From: Rhodoferax sp. | Lineage (GTDB): Bacteria; Pseudomonadota; Gammaproteobacteria; Burkholderiales; Burkholderiaceae | Reading direction: 5' to 3' | NCBI GenBank assembly: GCA_020048295.1 | Contig: JAIFMT010000150.1 | Location: 1 to 8,226 of the forward strand | Length of the DNA: 8,226 bases | Made by a program: the position numbers and the translations under genes | Shown here: in pieces, positions 44 through 8,226 of the stretch | Numbering within the stretch: position 1 is the first letter of the stretch | Layout of the letters: each line of letters opens with the position of its first letter | Notes under the pieces: generated by a model | The model's input: only the letters and a program-made list of their open reading frames with translations | The model's database searches: none | What the model was told of the DNA's origin: nothing

Positions 44-1150
44 ATGGAAGTCAGGCGGATTTTGGGGCCAGCCCTTGCGGCCATTTTGGCACTGGGCATT
101 GGCGCGGCGGTGTACGTGTCTTACGGGCGCCGGGCGGCAGACACTGCGGCCAAAGAGGCCGCCGCCGCCATGGTGGATGTGCGCGGCATGATTGGCTCGG
201 AAAAGGAGTCGTTCTTTGCCGACCCCAAAGTGGTTGAACTGCTGGGCGCCAAAGGGCTGCGCGTGGCGGTCGAAAAAGTGGGCTCGCGCGAAATTGCCTC
301 GCGCGACCTCAAGGGTTACGACTTTGGTTTTCCGGCCGGCGCACCGGCTGCCATAACCCTGCAAGCCAAGGCCAAAGCCAGGCAGGTGTATCCAACCTTC
401 TTCACGCCAATGGCCGTGGCCTCGTGGCAACTGCTGGTGCCTATCCTGGAAGGCGAAGGCATTGTCAAAAAGACTGACGGGGCGTACTACATCATCGACA
501 TGAAACGCCTGCTGGCCCTGAGCGAACAAGGTGCGCGCTGGCGCGACCTGAAAAACAACACCACCTTTGCCACCGGCAAAAGCATTCTGATCAGCTCCAC
601 CGACGTGCGCAAATCCAACTCGGGCGCCATGTACCTGGCGCTGGCCAGCTACGTGGCCAACGACAACAACGTGGTGGACAACGCCGAGCAGGCCAACAAG
701 GTGCTGCCGTTTGTCACCTCGCTGTTCTTGCGCCAGGGCCTGCAAGAATCAAGCAGCGCCGGGCCGTTTGAAGACTACGCCACCATGGGCGTGGGCAAGG
801 CCCCGCTGGTGATGATTTACGAGAGCCAGTTTCTCGAGTACCAGGCCAAACGTGCCAAGCCCAACCCCGACATGGTGCTGCTCTACCCGCAGCCCACCCT
901 TTACACCAAGCATATTCTGGTGCCATTCACTGACAACGGTCGCCGCCTGGGCGAATTGCTGGCGGGCGATGCCGAACTGCAAAAAATGGCCGCGCAGTAT
1001 GGCTACCGCACTGCTACGCCGGCCTATTTTGATGATTTCCTCAAGGCCAAAGGCCTGCAGGCTCCGATCAATCTGGTCGATGTGATTGACCCACCAAGCT
1101 TTGAAATGCTGGAGCGCATGATCCAGTCAATCGAGCAGAAATTCAAGTAA
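44..1150 (+). CDS. Membrane-anchored periplasmic substrate-binding-like protein
   Basis: This 368-residue protein has a short basic start (MEVRR) and one hydrophobic helix at about residues 6-27 with no obvious lipobox. It probably stays anchored in the inner membrane with a large periplasmic domain. The domain looks like a type-2 periplasmic binding fold. Residues 181-203 (ILISSTDVRKSNSGAMYLAL) contain an S/T-rich ligand-loop motif, residues 256-262 (VMIYESQ) and 279-283 (LLYPQ) resemble later core strands, and a helical end follows. The same landmarks occur in the N-terminal half of the lipoprotein encoded at 2385, so the two are probably distant paralogues. The telA-family gene follows after 20 bases, and no permease or ATPase gene is nearby. 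A role as ligand sensor or assembly factor is therefore more likely than ABC uptake, but the ligand is unknown. The fold call is from pattern only. Confidence 0.75.
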   Translation: MEVRRILGPALAAILALGIGAAVYVSYGRRAADTAAKEAAAAMVDVRGMIGSEKESFFADPKVVELLGAKGLRVAVEKVGSREIASRDLKGYDFGFPAGAPAAITLQAKAKARQVYPTFFTPMAVASWQLLVPILEGEGIVKKTDGAYYIIDMKRLLALSEQGARWRDLKNNTTFATGKSILISSTDVRKSNSGAMYLALASYVANDNNVVDNAEQANKVLPFVTSLFLRQGLQESSSAGPFEDYATMGVGKAPLVMIYESQFLEYQAKRAKPNPDMVLLYPQPTLYTKHILVPFTDNGRRLGELLAGDAELQKMAAQYGYRTATPAYFDDFLKAKGLQAPINLVDVIDPPSFEMLERMIQSIEQKFK

Positions 1151-1170: not shown

Positions 1171-2373
1171 ATGAGCCAGACCCAGGTTCTCGAACCCCCC
1201 GTGACGCTGACCCCGCCCGAAGTCCTCACCCCCATCGCCGAAACCAAGGCCCCCGACATGGTGCCGCTCAAGCCCGAGTTGCAGGGCAAGATCGACGCGC
1301 AGGTGGCGGCCTTCGTCAACGGCATGCTGGCTGAAGACATCCACAGCGACGGCTTCAAGGCCAAGCTGGATGCCAGCTTCCGGCTCGGCCGCGAAGAAAT
1401 TTCAGGTGCCGCCAGCCTGCTGGGCGGCCGCTTCATGGAGCGCAATTTTGTCGGCATTGAAGACTCCAGCGCCTTCAAGTCGATCCAGTCCATGCGCGGC
1501 ATGCTCGACGAACTCAACCCGGGCAAACAGGGCGACTTGCTGTCGCCGCAAAAAATCCTTGGCTTCATTCCGTTTGGCAACAAGCTGCAAGCTTACTTTC
1601 GCAAGTTTGAGAGCGCCTCAAGCCAGTTGCAGTCGATCATGACGCAGCTGTACGCCGCCCGCGACGACATGCAGCGCGATGCCGCCGAGATCGAGCAGAC
1701 CAAGGCCCGCCTGTGGGATGCCATGCAAAAGCTCAAAGGCGCAATTTATTTTGCCGAACAGCTCGACCAACAAATCGCCAGCCGCGTGGAGTCACTCAAG
1801 GCCAGCGACCCGCTGCGCGCCAAGGCGCTGGAGCAAGAGGTGCTGTTTTACGCGCGGCAAAACCTGCAGGACATGCAGACCCAGATGGCCGTCAATGTGA
1901 ACGGCTACCTGTCACTTGACGTACTGAAAAAAACCTCGCGCGAAATGGTCAACGGCTGCAACCGTGTGGCCACCACCGGCATGTCGGCGCTGGCCATTGC
2001 CCAGACCGTGGCGCGTGCCACGGGCAACCAGATCCAGGTGATGGAGATGTTGAACGGTGTCAGCAGCACGATTGGCGACCTGGTCACCGAGACCTCGCGC
2101 CAGTTGGGCAACCATGTGGAAAAGACAGCTGAGTTCTCCAGCAACCCGCTGATTGGCATCCAGAAAATCCAGGAGATGTTTGACAGCACCTTCAAGGCCA
2201 TGGATGCAATGGACAGCTTTCGCAGCAAGGCCATCGACAACATGGGCAAAAACAACCAGATGCTCAAGGAACAGATCGCACGCTCAGAGCAATACCTGGA
2301 CCGTACCCGCGCCGAGCAGGTACGCAGCGCCTTGCATGGCAGCGCTGTGGTGGATGGCCCGGTGAAACTTTGA
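1171..2373 (+). CDS. TelA-family toxic anion resistance protein
   Basis: This 400-residue soluble, largely helical protein fits the TelA/KlaA family (PF05816) over its full length, and its size is typical. A proline-rich N-terminal tail (about 1-35) precedes the family core. The most diagnostic stretch is residues 132-156, with FIPFGNKLQAYFRKFESAS followed by QLQSI. It is followed by long helices with coiled-coil character (150-240), the conserved NVNGYLSLDVLKKTSREMVNG segment from 242, and a C-terminal helix around AMDAMDSFRSKAIDNM (343-358). No signal peptide or membrane helix is seen, so it should act in the cytoplasm. AGGAG at 1159-1163 stands 7 bases before the ATG. Plasmid relatives were named for tellurite resistance, but chromosomal members often sit with vWA and XpaC-like proteins and their biochemical role is unresolved. 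Here it sits between two binding-protein-like genes. Tellurite resistance should not be assumed. Confidence 0.92.
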   Translation: MSQTQVLEPPVTLTPPEVLTPIAETKAPDMVPLKPELQGKIDAQVAAFVNGMLAEDIHSDGFKAKLDASFRLGREEISGAASLLGGRFMERNFVGIEDSSAFKSIQSMRGMLDELNPGKQGDLLSPQKILGFIPFGNKLQAYFRKFESASSQLQSIMTQLYAARDDMQRDAAEIEQTKARLWDAMQKLKGAIYFAEQLDQQIASRVESLKASDPLRAKALEQEVLFYARQNLQDMQTQMAVNVNGYLSLDVLKKTSREMVNGCNRVATTGMSALAIAQTVARATGNQIQVMEMLNGVSSTIGDLVTETSRQLGNHVEKTAEFSSNPLIGIQKIQEMFDSTFKAMDAMDSFRSKAIDNMGKNNQMLKEQIARSEQYLDRTRAEQVRSALHGSAVVDGPVKL

Positions 2374-2384
2374 GGAGTCTGGTG

Positions 2385-3962
2385 ATGAAAAAAGTTCTCG
2401 CCCTGCTGGGCATTTGCGCCGCGCTGTTGGTTGGCTGCGGCAAGCAAGACAGCACCACTACCGCGCCCGACCCGGCCAATACGCTCAGCGTGCTGGCCGG
2501 CTCTGAGCTCAAAGACATCGAGCCGCTGTTGCCGGCGCTGACCCAAGCCACCGGCATCACGCTGCAAATGCGCTATGTCGGCACGCTCGAAGCGGTTGAG
2601 AAGCTGCAAGCCGGTGAAGACGTGGATGCCGCCTGGCTGGCCAGCAACCGCTACGCCATGCTGGTGCCCGCTGCCAAGGCACGCATCCTGGCCTCTGAGC
2701 GCACCATGCTGACACCGGTGGTGCTGGGCCTCAAAGACAGCAAGGCCGCTGAGCTGGGCTGGAAAAACAACCCCAACGTCACCTGGAAAGACATTGCCCA
2801 GGCCGCCACCCAGGGCAAATTCACCTTCGGCATGACCAGCCCGGTATCGTCGAACACCGGCTTTTCGGCGCTGCTGGGGCTGGCCGCAGCCCTGTCGGGC
2901 AAGGGCGACGCGCTGGAAGAAAAAGACATCGATGGCAAGCGCCTGGCGGCTTTTTTCAAGGCGCAACGGCTCACCTCGGGCAGCTCGGGCTGGCTCGCCG
3001 ATGCCTGGCTGAAAGAGCCGGGCAAGGTTGATGGCATCATCAATTACGCCTCGACCCTGCTGTCGATGAACCGCAACCCGGCGCTGACTGAAAAACTGGT
3101 GCTGATCTATCCGCAAGACGGCATCACCACCGCCGACTACCCGCTGATGCTGGTGCAAGGGGCCAAACGCCCTGCCTATGAGAAGCTGGTGGCCTACCTG
3201 CGCGGGGCTGAGTTTCAGAAAAGCATGGCCGAACAAACCCTGCGCCGCCCGGTGAACCCCGATGTGCAGGTGTCTGATGCCGGCCCGAGCGCGCTGGTGG
3301 AGCTGCCGTTTCCGGCCAAACTGGCGGTGGTCGATGCCATTCTGGCGGCGTTTGACAACGAATTGCGCCTGCCCACCGACAGCACTTTTGTGCTGGACCA
3401 GAGCGGCTCGATGGAAAACGAGCGCATCGCCGCACTCAAGACGGCCATGCTCGGCCTGGCCGGGGCCGATGCCAGCATCAGCGGCCGCTTTGCCCGCTTT
3501 CGCAACCGCGAACGCATCTTTTTGCTGCCGTTCAGCGATAGCTTTGGGAATGTCGAGCGCTTTGACATGGGCAACAACGCGGCCAGCAACCAAGCCGCCA
3601 TGGCCAATTTGTCTGGGCGCATCAACGAATTGCAGGCCAATGGCGGCACCGCCATTTTCTCAGCCACCCAGCAAGCCTATCAAGAGGCAGCCAAGCGCCG
3701 GCGCAATGACCCGCAGCGCTTTTATTCGATCGTCATCATGACCGACGGCCTGAACAACAACGGCATCAAGGTCGATGAATTTGCGCAGTGGTATGCGCAG
3801 TTGCCGGCCGCCGACCAGGGCATCAAGCTGTTTCCGGTGCTGTTTGGCGAAGCCAGCGCCGCCGAGCTGCAACGCCTGGCCGAACTGACCGGGGGGCGGA
3901 CCTTTGACAGCCGAAAGACCAGCCTGGCGGCGATCTTCAAGGAAATACGCGGGTACCAGTAA
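2385..3962 (+). CDS. Lipoprotein with substrate-binding domain fused to a vWA domain
   Basis: This 525-residue lipoprotein has the signal peptide MKKVLALLGICAALLVGC, whose lipobox LVGC makes Cys18 the lipidated residue. The +2 residue is Gly, so outer-membrane sorting is possible. Residues about 33-300 form a type-2 periplasmic-binding-like domain (LSVLAGSELKDIEPLLPALT near the start, DAAWLASNRY at 81-90, TSPVSSNTGF at 151-160). Residues about 333-520 form a von Willebrand A domain with a complete MIDAS: D338, S340 and S342 in DQSGS, T422 in GGTAIFS, and D454 in MTDG. It should bind a divalent metal and a protein partner in the periplasm. GAGGAG at 2372-2377 overlaps the stop of the upstream gene and sits 7 bases before the ATG. 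A TTG at 2370 in the same frame lacks such a site. Binding-domain/vWA fusions are known in diverse bacteria, but no function is established. Confidence 0.9.
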   Translation: MKKVLALLGICAALLVGCGKQDSTTTAPDPANTLSVLAGSELKDIEPLLPALTQATGITLQMRYVGTLEAVEKLQAGEDVDAAWLASNRYAMLVPAAKARILASERTMLTPVVLGLKDSKAAELGWKNNPNVTWKDIAQAATQGKFTFGMTSPVSSNTGFSALLGLAAALSGKGDALEEKDIDGKRLAAFFKAQRLTSGSSGWLADAWLKEPGKVDGIINYASTLLSMNRNPALTEKLVLIYPQDGITTADYPLMLVQGAKRPAYEKLVAYLRGAEFQKSMAEQTLRRPVNPDVQVSDAGPSALVELPFPAKLAVVDAILAAFDNELRLPTDSTFVLDQSGSMENERIAALKTAMLGLAGADASISGRFARFRNRERIFLLPFSDSFGNVERFDMGNNAASNQAAMANLSGRINELQANGGTAIFSATQQAYQEAAKRRRNDPQRFYSIVIMTDGLNNNGIKVDEFAQWYAQLPAADQGIKLFPVLFGEASAAELQRLAELTGGRTFDSRKTSLAAIFKEIRGYQ

Positions 3963-4588
3963 TGCAACCGTTAAGCTTCTCGACGCGGCTGATGCTGTTT
4001 CTCTACAGCACCCGCAACCTGGTGGGCAGCAGCCTGGCGATCATCGGGCTGGCGCTGTTTTTTGCCGGCATCATTGCCGACTGGTGGATGCCCATCGTGC
4101 TTGGGCTGTACGCCGTGGGCTGGCTGGCGGCACCGGGCAGCCGCGAGCTGGACCTGAAAGTGCGCAACGAGGCCACGCAGGCGGATTTGATCGACAGCCT
4201 GGACGAACTGCTGGCACAGTCCAAGTCCCGGCTGCCGCATGAGGCAGTGGAGCGACTGCTGCGCATTCAAGCGGTGGTCCATGCGGTGGCACCCAAGCTG
4301 TTTTCCGGGGAAGTGACGATGGACTATGTGGTGACCCTGGTGCATGCGGTCACGCGCGACCTGCCCGCCACCGTAAAAAATTACCTGCGCCTGCCCAGTG
4401 CGTTTGCCAATCTGCACGCGCTGGAAGACGGCAAGACCAGCAAGCAGCTGCTGATCGAACAGCTTGACATTCTCGACCAGCAGCTGGCCAAAACCGCGCA
4501 GGACATCTATAAGGATGACGCGCAGGCGCTGATCAGCAATGGCTGGTTTCTCAAGGAAAAATTCCACAGCGTGTCATTTGTGGGTTGA
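3962..4588 (+). CDS. Small inner-membrane protein resembling XpaC
   Basis: This 208-residue protein has two closely spaced hydrophobic helices, at about residues 20-39 and 42-58. A soluble helical domain follows (about 62-205), which should be cytoplasmic given the short hairpin and basic N-terminal and post-helix residues. The pattern from residue 140 on, NYLRLPSAFANLHAL then regularly spaced Leu/Ile and DIYKDDAQAL, resembles the C-terminal half of the XpaC family (PF10112). Members of that family are neighbours of TelA proteins in Bacillus (xpaC-yaaN). The name '5-bromo-4-chloroindolyl phosphate hydrolysis protein' is historical and should not be read as an enzyme activity. The ATG shares one base with the upstream stop (TAATG), so translation is probably coupled. 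The nearest AAGGAA (3939-3944) is rather distant. Similarity to XpaC is by pattern and by context with TelA, so the family assignment is moderate; the gene itself is secure. Confidence 0.75.
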   Translation: MQPLSFSTRLMLFLYSTRNLVGSSLAIIGLALFFAGIIADWWMPIVLGLYAVGWLAAPGSRELDLKVRNEATQADLIDSLDELLAQSKSRLPHEAVERLLRIQAVVHAVAPKLFSGEVTMDYVVTLVHAVTRDLPATVKNYLRLPSAFANLHALEDGKTSKQLLIEQLDILDQQLAKTAQDIYKDDAQALISNGWFLKEKFHSVSFVG

Positions 4589-4768: not shown

Positions 4769-5176
4769 ATGAAACTTCAACGCCTCACCACCCAACTGCT
4801 GCTGTGCCTGGCCAGCGCCCTGCCCTTGGCAGCAGCCGCCAACCCCGTTCTGGACGGGCTGCGCAGCGCGGCCAAACAGGAAAACCCTGCTTTCAAGGAC
4901 TTCAGCGCTGCCGCTGGCGAAAGGCTCTACACCACAGTTGGTCCCAACAAGCTCTCTTGTTCGTCGTGCCACACGCCGTCGCCCAAAAACAGTGGCAAGC
5001 ACGCCACCACCAACAAGGTCATTGAGCCAATGGCACCTGCGGTCAACCCGCAGCGCTTCAGCGACAGTGCCAAGGTTGAAAAATGGTTCAAACGCAATTG
5101 CAACGACGCACTGGGGCGCGCCTGCACCACGCAGGAAAAAGGCGACTTTGTGAGCTGGATGCTGTCCATCAAATAA
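4769..5176 (+). CDS. shp: SHP-type (DUF1924) periplasmic monoheme cytochrome c
   Basis: This 135-residue precursor has a Sec signal peptide (MKLQRL, hydrophobic core, then ALPLAAA), leaving about 112 residues after cleavage, the size of Rhodobacter sphaeroides SHP. One c-heme site, CSSCH, is at residues 64-68. Near the C-terminus, WFKRNCNDALGRAC (106-119) carries the SHP hallmarks: Asn110, equivalent to the unusual Asn sixth heme ligand, and Cys111 with Cys119, which form a disulfide in the family. Counting from a mature start at residue 23 puts these at 88, 89 and 97, the numbering I recall for R. sphaeroides SHP. Asn ligation leaves the reduced heme able to bind small ligands such as O2 or NO; the physiological substrate is unsettled. 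The start lacks a clear Shine-Dalgarno sequence (only ACGGT at 4757-4761). The next gene follows after 10 bases, and its DHC domains are the expected electron donor. Confidence 0.9.
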   Translation: MKLQRLTTQLLLCLASALPLAAAANPVLDGLRSAAKQENPAFKDFSAAAGERLYTTVGPNKLSCSSCHTPSPKNSGKHATTNKVIEPMAPAVNPQRFSDSAKVEKWFKRNCNDALGRACTTQEKGDFVSWMLSIK

Positions 5177-5186
5177 GGCTCACCGC

Positions 5187-6830
5187 ATGAACAAGAACCT
5201 GACCCTAACCCTGCTGGCAGTCGCCGCCAGCTGCAGTTTTGCAGCGCAGGCTGCCAAATACAACGGCGAAGATCGCGGTCGCCCGGTCATGCCGGCGCAA
5301 GGCAACACCAAGTGGCAGGTCGAGTGCAGCGGCTGCCACCTGGCTTACCCGCCGGGTCTGCTGCCGGCAGCCTCGTGGACAAAACTCATGGGCAGCTTAG
5401 ACAAGCACTTTGGCAGCGATGCCTCGCTGGCGACTGCCGATGCGCAAGAGATCAGCCGCTATCTGACGCAACACGCCTCCAACCGATGGAGCGCCAGCAC
5501 CGCACCGCTGCGCATCAGCGAAGCGGGCTGGTTCAAGTCCAAGCACAGCGCTGGTGAGATCAACCCGGCGGTCTGGAAGCGCGAGTCGGTCAAGAGCGCG
5601 GCCAATTGCACCGCCTGCCACGGCAGCGGCGCTGCAAGTGGCGATTTTGACGAAGACCGCGTCACCACCCGCCTGTTTCACTGGACGCTGGCGGGCAGCT
5701 TTGCGCTGGCCTGGCTGAGCGCTGAATCTGACAGCTGGCGCGCACTGCACGTTTTTTGCGGCTACCTGATGCTGGGGCTGTTGGCCTTTCGGCTGCTGTG
5801 GGGTTTTGCCGGTTCACACTACGCGCGGTTTGCCACCTTCTGCTTTGGCCCGAGAGCGGGGCTAGCCTATTTCAAGCAGGTGCTGTCGGGCCAGGCCAGC
5901 CGCCATGTCGGGCACAACCCCGCCGGCAGCCTGGCCATTTATCTGTTGCTGCTGCTGACGCTGCTGGCTGGCGTGACCGGGGTGCTGACGCTGGGTTCCG
6001 AAGAGCAGCACGGCCTGGCCACAGGTTGGCTGGCCCTGAGCCAGGCAAAACTGCTGAAGTCGCTGCATGAAGCAGTTACCACTGCCATGCTGCTGCTGGT
6101 GCTGGGGCATATTGCCGGGGTGGTGGTGGAAAGCTGGCTGCACCGCGAGAACCTGGCGCGCGCAATGCTGACCGGCATCAAGCAGGCTGTAGCCGGCACG
6201 CCCGCTGCCAAACCCCATCGCCTGGTGGCGCTGGGCCTGCTGCTGGCGATGCTGGGCTTTGGCGGCTGGTGGTTTGCTTACGCAATTGACCGCCAGCTTG
6301 ACCTATTCGCTGGCCACGCGGGGCAGGAAAGCGCCCGGACAGAGGAGCCGCACGTCCGGTTTGTCGGCCCGCAGTTGCCCGACAACGCCCGCTGGCGTGA
6401 GGAATGCGGCAGCTGCCACGCGGTGTTTTACCCGTCGCTGCTGCCTGCACGCTCATGGGAAAAAATCATGGCTGGGCAAACTGATCATTTCGGCACCGAC
6501 CTGGGTCTGGACGCTGCTACCACGCAAGCGGTGCTGGCGTTCATGCAGGACAACGCCGCCGACCGGCACCTGACTGAGGCAGGTCTGAAGATCGACCAGT
6601 CGGTGCCGCCCAATGCCACGCCGCTGCGCATCACCGACACGGCCTACTGGATTAGAAAGCACCGCGAAATTGCCGCCGCCGACTGGGCCAACCCGCTGGT
6701 CAAGAGCCGCGCCAACTGCGCCGCCTGCCACAGCGATGCCGATGCCGGCACGTTTGAAGACGGTGCCATGCAGATCCCCGCCACGCCAGCGCACACCGCT
6801 GGCTCGGCCGCCGCTGCTGCAAGTCAGTAA
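5187..6830 (+). CDS. DHC - cytochrome b561 - DHC chimeric multiheme membrane protein
   Basis: This 547-residue protein starts with a Sec signal peptide (about 1-22). A diheme cytochrome c (DHC, PF09626) domain occupies about 24-159, with CSGCH at 47-51 and CTACH at 141-145. Next comes a Ni/Fe-hydrogenase-type cytochrome b561 domain (160 to about 335) with hydrophobic segments near 163-180, 184-209, 246-269 and 292-316. A fifth helix (344-367) leads to a second DHC domain (about 385-531) with CGSCH at 407-411 and CAACH at 511-515. Likely b-heme ligands are H165 (RLFHW), H188, H294 and H308, enough for two hemes. The expected role is to pass quinol electrons through the b hemes to the c hemes and then to SHP. 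AAGG at 5175-5178 is 8 bases before the ATG. The cytochrome b part has no start codon of its own at the junction. DHC and cytochrome b are usually separate genes, so this may be an in-frame deletion fusion. Confidence 0.88.
   Translation: MNKNLTLTLLAVAASCSFAAQAAKYNGEDRGRPVMPAQGNTKWQVECSGCHLAYPPGLLPAASWTKLMGSLDKHFGSDASLATADAQEISRYLTQHASNRWSASTAPLRISEAGWFKSKHSAGEINPAVWKRESVKSAANCTACHGSGAASGDFDEDRVTTRLFHWTLAGSFALAWLSAESDSWRALHVFCGYLMLGLLAFRLLWGFAGSHYARFATFCFGPRAGLAYFKQVLSGQASRHVGHNPAGSLAIYLLLLLTLLAGVTGVLTLGSEEQHGLATGWLALSQAKLLKSLHEAVTTAMLLLVLGHIAGVVVESWLHRENLARAMLTGIKQAVAGTPAAKPHRLVALGLLLAMLGFGGWWFAYAIDRQLDLFAGHAGQESARTEEPHVRFVGPQLPDNARWREECGSCHAVFYPSLLPARSWEKIMAGQTDHFGTDLGLDAATTQAVLAFMQDNAADRHLTEAGLKIDQSVPPNATPLRITDTAYWIRKHREIAAADWANPLVKSRANCAACHSDADAGTFEDGAMQIPATPAHTAGSAAAAASQ
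5656..5681 (+). other. Junction of the N-terminal DHC with the cytochrome b domain
   Basis: Residues 153-166 read DFDEDRV followed directly by TTRLFHW. DFDEDRV corresponds to the end of a DHC, where a few more residues (RIP-like) and a stop are usual; the C-terminal DHC copy ends TFEDGAMQIP. TTRLFHW corresponds to a point roughly ten residues into free-standing b561-type proteins, which usually begin M...VWD.PTR.FHW. No ATG, GTG or TTG in frame lies near the join. Seen directly: continuous reading frame and domain order. Inferred: loss of a stop, an intergenic gap and a start. Confidence 0.6.
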
Positions 6831-6843
6831 GCCCAGCGACAGT

Positions 6844-8226
6844 TCACGCCGGCACAGGCCAGCGGACCATCACGCTCAGGCCACCCAGTTCGGCCGAACG
6901 CTGCACCGTGACTTGCGCCTGGTACACCGCTGCAATGCGCCGCACAATCGACCAACCCAGCCCGCTGCCGCTTTGCCCACTGCCCAGCACCCTGAAAAAG
7001 CGCTCGCCCAGGCGCTGCAGCTCAGCGGGTGTCAGGCCGGGTCCACTGTCATCGACCTGTAACAGCACTTGCCTGCCGTCCTGCACGACCGACACGTTGA
7101 CACTGGCACCCGGCGGGCTGTAGCGCAACGCGTTGTCGAGCAAATTGCGCAACAGCACGCTGGTCAACATGTCATCAGCGGCGACCCAGCACGCCTGTGG
7201 TGCTGCCAGTGACAACTGCTGCTGGCGCTGCAATGCGGTGGGTGCCAGGTCGGCCGCCACGCGCTGCGCCAGCGCTGACAGATTGACCCGCCCAGTCTGC
7301 GTACTGGGCTGCGATGACTCCAGCCTGGACAGCGTCAGCAACTGCTCAACCAGATGCACCGCACGGTCACAGCCAGCCAGTGTTTGCTGCAGCGCCCGGT
7401 CGCGCCCGACGGCATCATCGTCCAGGATACCCAGGGCCACTTGCGCCTGCATGCGGATGGCGGCAATCGGGGTACGCAGCTCGTGCGCGGCATCTGCGGT
7501 AAAGCGTCGTTCAACTTCCAACATGGCGCTGATGCGGGCAAACAGCTGGTTGAGCGACTGCACGACGGGCTCGATTTCGGAAGGCGCGCCTTGCAGCCGC
7601 AAGTCATCCAGTGCCTGCGGCTGACGCTGCGCCAACGTCTGGCTCAGCGTGCGCAGCGGGGCCAGCCCGTGGCGCACCGCCAGCCAACCCAGCAACGCCA
7701 GCAACGGCAGCGCCAGCGCCAAGGGCATCAGCAGGCTTTGCAGTACCGCCCACAAGATGGATTCGCGCGTGGTGATTTGTTCGCCGACAAAGACCTGCAC
7801 ATCGCCTTCATTACCTTGCGCGGCAAACACGCGCCATGAAATGCCATCCGCCAGGCGCACCGTCTCGAATCCGCGCTGAGTGCGGGCCATCGGGGTCAGG
7901 CCGACGTTGCCCGAGTGCAAGGTCAGCCGCCCTTCGTGAAACACCTGAAATGCCACTCGATGCGCGTATTTGTGCATGGGTGTGGCACTGTCGGGCGGCA
8001 AATGCGCATCAGAGGCTTCAGTAACATCGTGTTCAGCCTCTATTTCATGGCCCGGACTGGCTTGCTGCGCCACCAGCAGGGCCGCCGACTGCGCCAGGTG
8101 ACCGTCCAGCAGTTCGTCAAGCTCGTGCGCGGTGTCCCACCAGGCCAGCAGCGCCGCGCTGAACCACACCAGCAGCACCATCAGCAGCAGCAAAGACAAC
8201 AAACGCCCTTGCAATGAGCGCACTTT
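6844..8226 (-). CDS. QseC-like sensor histidine kinase (5' end at window edge)
   Basis: This is an inner-membrane two-component sensor of at least 459 residues. A first helix at about 8-29 and a second at about 158-183 enclose a periplasmic domain of some 130 residues, rich in His in its middle (59-103). A HAMP-like linker (184-237) leads to the dimerization domain, with phospho-acceptor His247 in FTADAAHELRTP. The ATPase domain follows: N-box LLRNLLDNALRYSPPG (N364), G1 DDSGPGL (391-397), F-box ERFF (407-410) and G2 GSGLGWSIV (419-427). All catalytic motifs are intact. A GTG at 8223 could start it, but the preceding codon is AAA in frame, so an ATG just outside the window (giving MKVRSLQG) is equally likely. 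Its stop lies 13 bases from that of the convergent cytochrome gene. The response regulator expected as partner would lie beyond 8226. QseC is named from enteric homologues; the signal here is unknown. Confidence 0.93.
   Translation of the reverse strand, partial: KVRSLQGRLLSLLLLMVLLVWFSAALLAWWDTAHELDELLDGHLAQSAALLVAQQASPGHEIEAEHDVTEASDAHLPPDSATPMHKYAHRVAFQVFHEGRLTLHSGNVGLTPMARTQRGFETVRLADGISWRVFAAQGNEGDVQVFVGEQITTRESILWAVLQSLLMPLALALPLLALLGWLAVRHGLAPLRTLSQTLAQRQPQALDDLRLQGAPSEIEPVVQSLNQLFARISAMLEVERRFTADAAHELRTPIAAIRMQAQVALGILDDDAVGRDRALQQTLAGCDRAVHLVEQLLTLSRLESSQPSTQTGRVNLSALAQRVAADLAPTALQRQQQLSLAAPQACWVAADDMLTSVLLRNLLDNALRYSPPGASVNVSVVQDGRQVLLQVDDSGPGLTPAELQRLGERFFRVLGSGQSGSGLGWSIVRRIAAVYQAQVTVQRSAELGGLSVMVRWPVPA

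Follow-up and report, generated by a model that had tools for sequence, protein, structure and literature searches.

In-frame joining of a soluble diheme cytochrome c to the CytB/mDHC chimera in a Rhodoferax-like SHP operon, probably by a private deletion

The window, by which we mean the whole stretch of 8,226 nucleotides that was analyzed, contains a single open frame that runs through a soluble diheme cytochrome c (sDHC), a b-type cytochrome (CytB) and a membrane-attached diheme cytochrome c (mDHC). This is probably a Rhodoferax-like betaproteobacterial SHP operon whose sDHC gene was fused to the gene for a CytB/mDHC chimera by a private in-frame deletion. What is new in the window is the joining of sDHC to the front of CytB/mDHC, while the remaining two thirds of the protein are ordinary. 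The SHP gene is located directly upstream of the fused frame, and SHP, DHC and cytochrome b are found side by side. The features of the window, with the parts of the fused frame, are the following:

44-1150, plus strand: frame flanking the TelA/von Willebrand A pair, without Pfam match
1171-2373, plus strand: TelA-family gene (Pfam)
2385-3962, plus strand: gene for a solute-binding/von Willebrand A (VWA) protein (Pfam)
3962-4588, plus strand: other frame flanking the same pair, without Pfam match
4769-5176, plus strand: SHP gene (Sphaeroides heme protein, DUF1924), 135 aa; PF09086, E 9.9e-39, profile positions 2-96 of 96
5187-6830, plus strand: fused sDHC-CytB-mDHC frame, 547 aa, with an ATG start and no internal stop
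5256-5663, plus strand: former sDHC, residues 24-159; the best stand-alone relative is P0148, 80% identical
5661-5669, plus strand: junction, codons V159-T160-T161, placed by comparison with P0002 and with two-gene loci
5667-6284, plus strand: CytB, b561/FdnI-like, five helices, residues 161-366; PF01292, HyaC profile, weak FdnI match
6363-6782, plus strand: mDHC, residues 393-532; PF09626 at residues 403-523, structures 3u99 and 2fw5
6844-8223, minus strand: QseC-like sensor kinase; PRK10337 QseC, HisKA, HATPase_c

The architecture of the fused protein is as the original prediction had described it. The uninterrupted frame, the DHC, the b561 helices, the extra helix and the second DHC were all confirmed by the reading frame itself, Pfam, PDB and a structure model, as were the four CxxCH sites, which start at residues 47, 141, 407 and 511, and the four candidate b-heme histidines. 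The signal peptide, read by eye, is MNKNLTLTLLAVAASCSFAAQA. PF09626 (DHC) matches two stretches (whole-protein E 3.7e-73; 244.4 bits against a cut-off of 22.2). In the PDB, the front domain (residues 27-157) matches the DHC 2fw5 (E 2.1e-25) and the rear domain (residues 395-532) matches the DHC 3u99 (E 2.8e-21). Each DHC domain has a Pfam match above the cut-off and two CxxCH motifs, found at residues 47-51 and 141-145 in the sDHC part (5325-5339 and 5607-5621) and at residues 407-411 and 511-515 in the mDHC part (6405-6419 and 6717-6731). Judged by these motifs, both domains carry candidate c-heme sites. Behind the junction, the b561-type CytB, a fifth helix and the C-terminal DHC are all present. 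PF01292 (cytochrome b561) covers residues 160-330 and profile positions 5-179 of 179 (E 7.5e-22), the CytB part matches the profile of HyaC (4gd3) with E 4.5e-10, and a weak Foldseek match to FdnI (1kqf_C, E 9e-3) was obtained. The candidate b-heme histidines H165, H188, H294 and H308 are kept in 146 of 146 distinct relatives, a set made by merging the 46 matches of an N-terminal search with the best 120 of 857 homologs.

Most of this protein belongs to a known kind. In the passages of Meyer et al. 2010 (PMC2909971) that deal with these genes, a three-gene SHP operon with a soluble DHC and a CytB/mDHC chimera is described. The same passages give the chimera for Rhodobacter sphaeroides, Rhodoferax ferrireducens, Campylobacter fetus and others, state that CytB is not chimeric with mDHC in most species, and mention a CytB/SHP chimera in Rhodospirillum rubrum and Magnetospirillum magnetotacticum. 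For the intact operon, the electron flow proposed there goes from quinol to CytB, then to mDHC and sDHC, and finally to the oxygen-binding SHP. Scanning the GTDB species genomes brought up 269 relatives, and the best 80 were kept for examination; the gene order SHP, DHC, CytB/mDHC is present in 58 of these 80 loci. The homologs listed (best 120 of 857, with 7995 candidates scored) have 382-428 aa, cover 68-71% of the query and are of the CytB/mDHC kind. The expectation that related clusters encode DHC and cytochrome b in separate genes is therefore wrong for the close relatives, according both to these 120 homologs and to the chimera as published in those passages (PMC2909971). In close relatives the CytB-DHC fusion is usual, and the soluble DHC only is normally a separate gene. 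CytB genes without a fused DHC also occur (L114, L115 and L121, about 240 aa); they keep the fifth hydrophobic segment and, after it, a hydrophilic tail. The extra helix thus occurs independently of the DHC fusion.

A nearby sensor kinase is a feature of SHP operons, not in all species, and in the window it is represented by the QseC-like kinase, which matches PRK10337 QseC with E 1.4e-99 and 333.8 bits, below the curated cut-off of 475. This gene is encoded on the minus strand and converges with the cytochrome genes. A related kinase frame was found in 19 of the 80 loci, on the same strand as CytB in 19 of 19 (for example L005, L025, L038 and L073, with 63-66% identity). Fourteen of the 80 loci harbor an extra, more distant DHC gene before SHP, 44-49% identical, which is absent from the window (L001, at 3059-3565, L002, L003, L004, L011, L020, L022, L024, L026, L028, L029, L030, L031 and L061). 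A promoter scan of the window found none, and 5 terminator-like sites were counted against 3.6 expected.

The junction can be read by comparison with an unfused protein, P0002, encoded on a JGI-sourced contig of 16,003 bases and identical to the window at 383 of 387 positions from T161 onward. P0002 has its own start, MQPTLIWDLP-TRLFHW, where the window reads GDFDEDRV-T-TRLFHW across the join. The left side is sDHC sequence and the CytB sequence starts at T161, the ten residues MQPTLIWDLP being missing ahead of TRLFHW, with sDHC sequence in their place. In the 144 of 146 relatives having the motif, the tail ahead of RLFHW has 9-41 residues (median 11). The spacer between sDHC and TRLFHW was readable in 55 of the 80 loci, and all of them have a stop followed by 29-162 nt. 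The sDHC itself ends in a hydrophobic residue, a proline and one more residue before the stop in 54 of these 55 loci (L053 differs); compared with these tails, the sDHC part of the fused frame no longer has the customary end, xIPK or a variant of it, and the stop. These comparisons indicate that the window has lost the sDHC tail, its stop, the spacer, the CytB start codon and the first ten CytB residues, and an in-frame deletion accounts for what is missing. Such a deletion would remove the last few residues of sDHC with the stop, then the spacer, then the CytB start codon together with the first ten CytB residues, and the size of the deletion, judged from the relatives, would be roughly 45-180 bp. 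The fusion keeps the reading frame and both DHC domains retain all heme motifs, as would be expected of a selected fusion, but of a recent deletion too.

We infer that the deletion is real rather than an assembly error, although the latter is its main rival and, while unlikely, deserves to be taken seriously. The organism would then have two normal genes, and the join would come from sequencing, amplification, assembly or mixed strains. The join is indeed a singleton among the 46 N-terminal matches and the 133 CytB frames discussed below, and the near-identical P0002 is unfused. Moreover, the protein search gave no sDHC that could be the expected neighbor of P0002, the best match being an sDHC of 80% identity; this would fit contigs breaking at this spot, and the P0002 contig may end or break near its sDHC. 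On the other hand, the join preserves the reading frame, no long repeat of a kind that misleads assemblers is apparent there, and no damage was seen in the other Pfam-matched frames of the window: the profiles of TelA (4-332 of 332) and SHP (2-96 of 96) are covered, and those of HisKA (3-65 of 66), HATPase_c (9-110 of 111) and VWA (3-165 of 174) are also mostly covered.

The same fusion was searched for in proteins and in genomes. A search with query residues 1-200 among 3893 candidates of 301-957 aa gave 46 matches of 362-417 aa, and the front sDHC-CytB join is absent from all 46. A protein with a front DHC and CytB but without the rear DHC would also have approximately 360-420 aa, and for this reason the domain order was checked in the 146 distinct relatives. 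In none of the 146 does a CxxCH precede the CytB part; P0139 and P0142, which are without FHW, have their CxxCH at 254/358 and 248/350, that is, behind it. No fusion of the window type was found in the 80 loci (best 80 of 269 relatives in the GTDB species genomes). Further genome searches covered 6, 89, 399, 399 and 398 genomes, which overlap and total 1291 with some counted twice. The three large ones used E cut-offs of 1e-60, 1e-50 and 1e-30, with at most 3 candidates scored per genome, and the counts from the 89-genome search are for the matches listed; weak or distant cases may have escaped these searches.

The 80 loci and the genome searches together gave 133 distinct CytB frames, including the window and counting identical CytB segments once. 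A DHC is present ahead of CytB in one of the 133, which is the window itself, and behind CytB in 102 (window included); SHP is behind CytB in one. Thus the 132 other distinct frames have DHC or SHP behind CytB in 102 cases and ahead of it in none. A separate DHC frame is found just upstream of CytB in 70 of the 133 frames, and 32 of these are in the same reading frame. In five genomes (G001:C77, G150:C73, G460:C154, G518:C31 and G795:C2) sDHC and CytB/mDHC align as one frame with only one or two stop codons between them, so the fusion is mutationally near, yet unseen there.

Some candidates were rejected after inspection. G070 (residues 84-281), G761 (141-364) and G1117 (148-334) are stop-free across the junction among the matches listed; read as DNA, they are CytB frames whose upstream part has neither a CxxCH nor a DHC match, and they are not fusions. 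Long open-frame values were also given for several relatives in the 89-genome search, where the DNA reading revealed separate frames. L034, L051, L053 and L072 have long parts upstream of CytB, from which CxxCH is absent.

These searches bear on the reading that the three-part frame is the ordinary architecture of the family, previously unnoticed. The CytB/mDHC fusion itself is common, both among the best 120 of 857 homologs and in the relevant passages of Meyer et al. (PMC2909971), but no front DHC was found in the 132 other distinct CytB frames nor in the 146 relatives. The reading is extremely improbable and, within the material examined, it is refuted. The search for this architecture, suggested with the original prediction, brought up no relative sharing it among those examined, and the three-part frame is not the family norm (0 of 132 other CytB frames).

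The position of the front domain has consequences for membrane topology. In the b-type part of the AlphaFold model, long helices are formed by residues 156-177, 182-208, 245-272, 284-319 and 345-383. Its overall quality is poor (mean pLDDT 59.9, pTM 0.52) and lowest over the front DHC, with means of 27-49 for 10-residue blocks over residues 1-150, because the alignment A1 has no sDHC rows. A mixed alignment, A2, seemed from its summary to place sDHC rows on the rear DHC, and the model was built without it. Helix 1 is confident in the model, with pLDDT of about 87-89 over residues 161-180. Over the 146 relatives it is the least hydrophobic helix, with a mean Kyte-Doolittle value of 0.86 versus 1.57-2.39 for helices 2-5. 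The net charges over the same 146 relatives are +0.9 for the N-tail, about 0 for loop 1, +3.2 for loop 2, -1.5 for loop 3, +2.7 for loop 4 and -1.4 after helix 5. This charge pattern would put the start of CytB and loops 2 and 4 inside, whereas loop 3 and the segment that follows helix 5 would be outside.

If the front and the rear DHC are separated by an odd number of helices, the two ends of the protein would be on opposite sides of the membrane. To acquire its heme, the rear DHC has to be outside and the start of CytB is thus inside, while the signal peptide exports the front DHC. With five predicted helices and the CytB start inside, a periplasmic front domain would conflict with a periplasmic rear domain, and the two demands can be reconciled only when one helix is kept out of the membrane. 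The odd helix count of the model and the charge pattern therefore argue against both DHC domains being on the periplasmic side, a consequence of the fusion that we infer from charges, helix count and homology. Such a topological limit fits the finding of the c-type domain behind CytB in all 102 other fusions seen. One of these has a different domain: L170 (1312-2430), a frame of 373 aa, resembles the published Rhodospirillum rubrum CytB/SHP chimera and has SHP behind CytB, and this one other kind of periplasmic fusion is also located behind CytB. Finally, no in-frame ATG, GTG or TTG is present between residues 68 and 195 of the fused frame, from which a normal CytB therefore cannot be made alone.

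The original prediction went further and proposed that the fusion tethers a six-heme wire from the quinone pool to SHP in one polypeptide. This is poorly supported in view of the five predicted helices and the predicted inside position of the CytB start, and it is also weakened by the removal of ten CytB residues and the sDHC tail at the join. The signal peptide would export the front DHC to the periplasm, and this domain and mDHC, each of which needs the periplasm, would then have the five CytB helices between them. The helices might insert upside down, leaving mDHC heme-free on the cytoplasmic side, or helix 1 might be kept out of the membrane together with the heme ligand it carries. Since either option misplaces mDHC or helix 1, the chain is expected to be impaired or dead, and not a better wire.

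A real and functional single-chain hexaheme quinol:SHP wire is accordingly given little credence here. It might work with helix 1 of CytB outside, as helices 2-5 and both DHC domains would then keep their usual sides; the c-heme motifs and the b-heme histidines are all kept, and helix 1 is the least hydrophobic, so a four-helix arrangement is conceivable. However, the model predicts helix 1 with confidence, and H165 on this helix is conserved in all 146 relatives; leaving the helix out of the membrane would cost a b heme, and no relative examined shows the fusion. It is likewise very doubtful that a real hexaheme chain is expressed, a recent deletion having tethered sDHC to its membrane partner with helix 1 outside or with mixed insertion. 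If this were true, the window would hold a newly born gene fusion, a test of whether such fusions are limited by membrane topology. A fusion that is both real and working would lead electrons from quinol to SHP within one chain and would break the pattern of c-type domains only behind CytB (102 behind and 0 ahead in 132 frames). In the more likely case of a deletion or an assembly error, the window cautions against taking one fused frame for a new protein architecture.

Compared with known systems, residues 161-547 of the window protein are the same protein as the CytB/mDHC chimera of SHP operons, and they occur beside SHP and sDHC. Unlike that chimera, the window protein has sDHC in frame ahead of CytB and is missing the first ten CytB residues. 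In the CytB/SHP chimera of R. rubrum and M. magnetotacticum, a cytochrome b of this kind is likewise joined to a c-type domain, but the domain is SHP, which in the comparable frame L170 is behind CytB. FdnI and HyaC are four-helix subunits of formate dehydrogenase and hydrogenase. Among solved structures, these membrane cytochrome b subunits (1kqf_C and 4gd3) come closest to the helix bundle of the window protein, FdnI weakly by its fold and HyaC by its sequence profile, but they are without DHC domains. Both end domains of the window protein match soluble DHC (2fw5, 2fwt and 3u99), although the solved DHC structures are stand-alone chains of 125-148 residues, unlike the domains of the window, which are parts of one frame with CytB.
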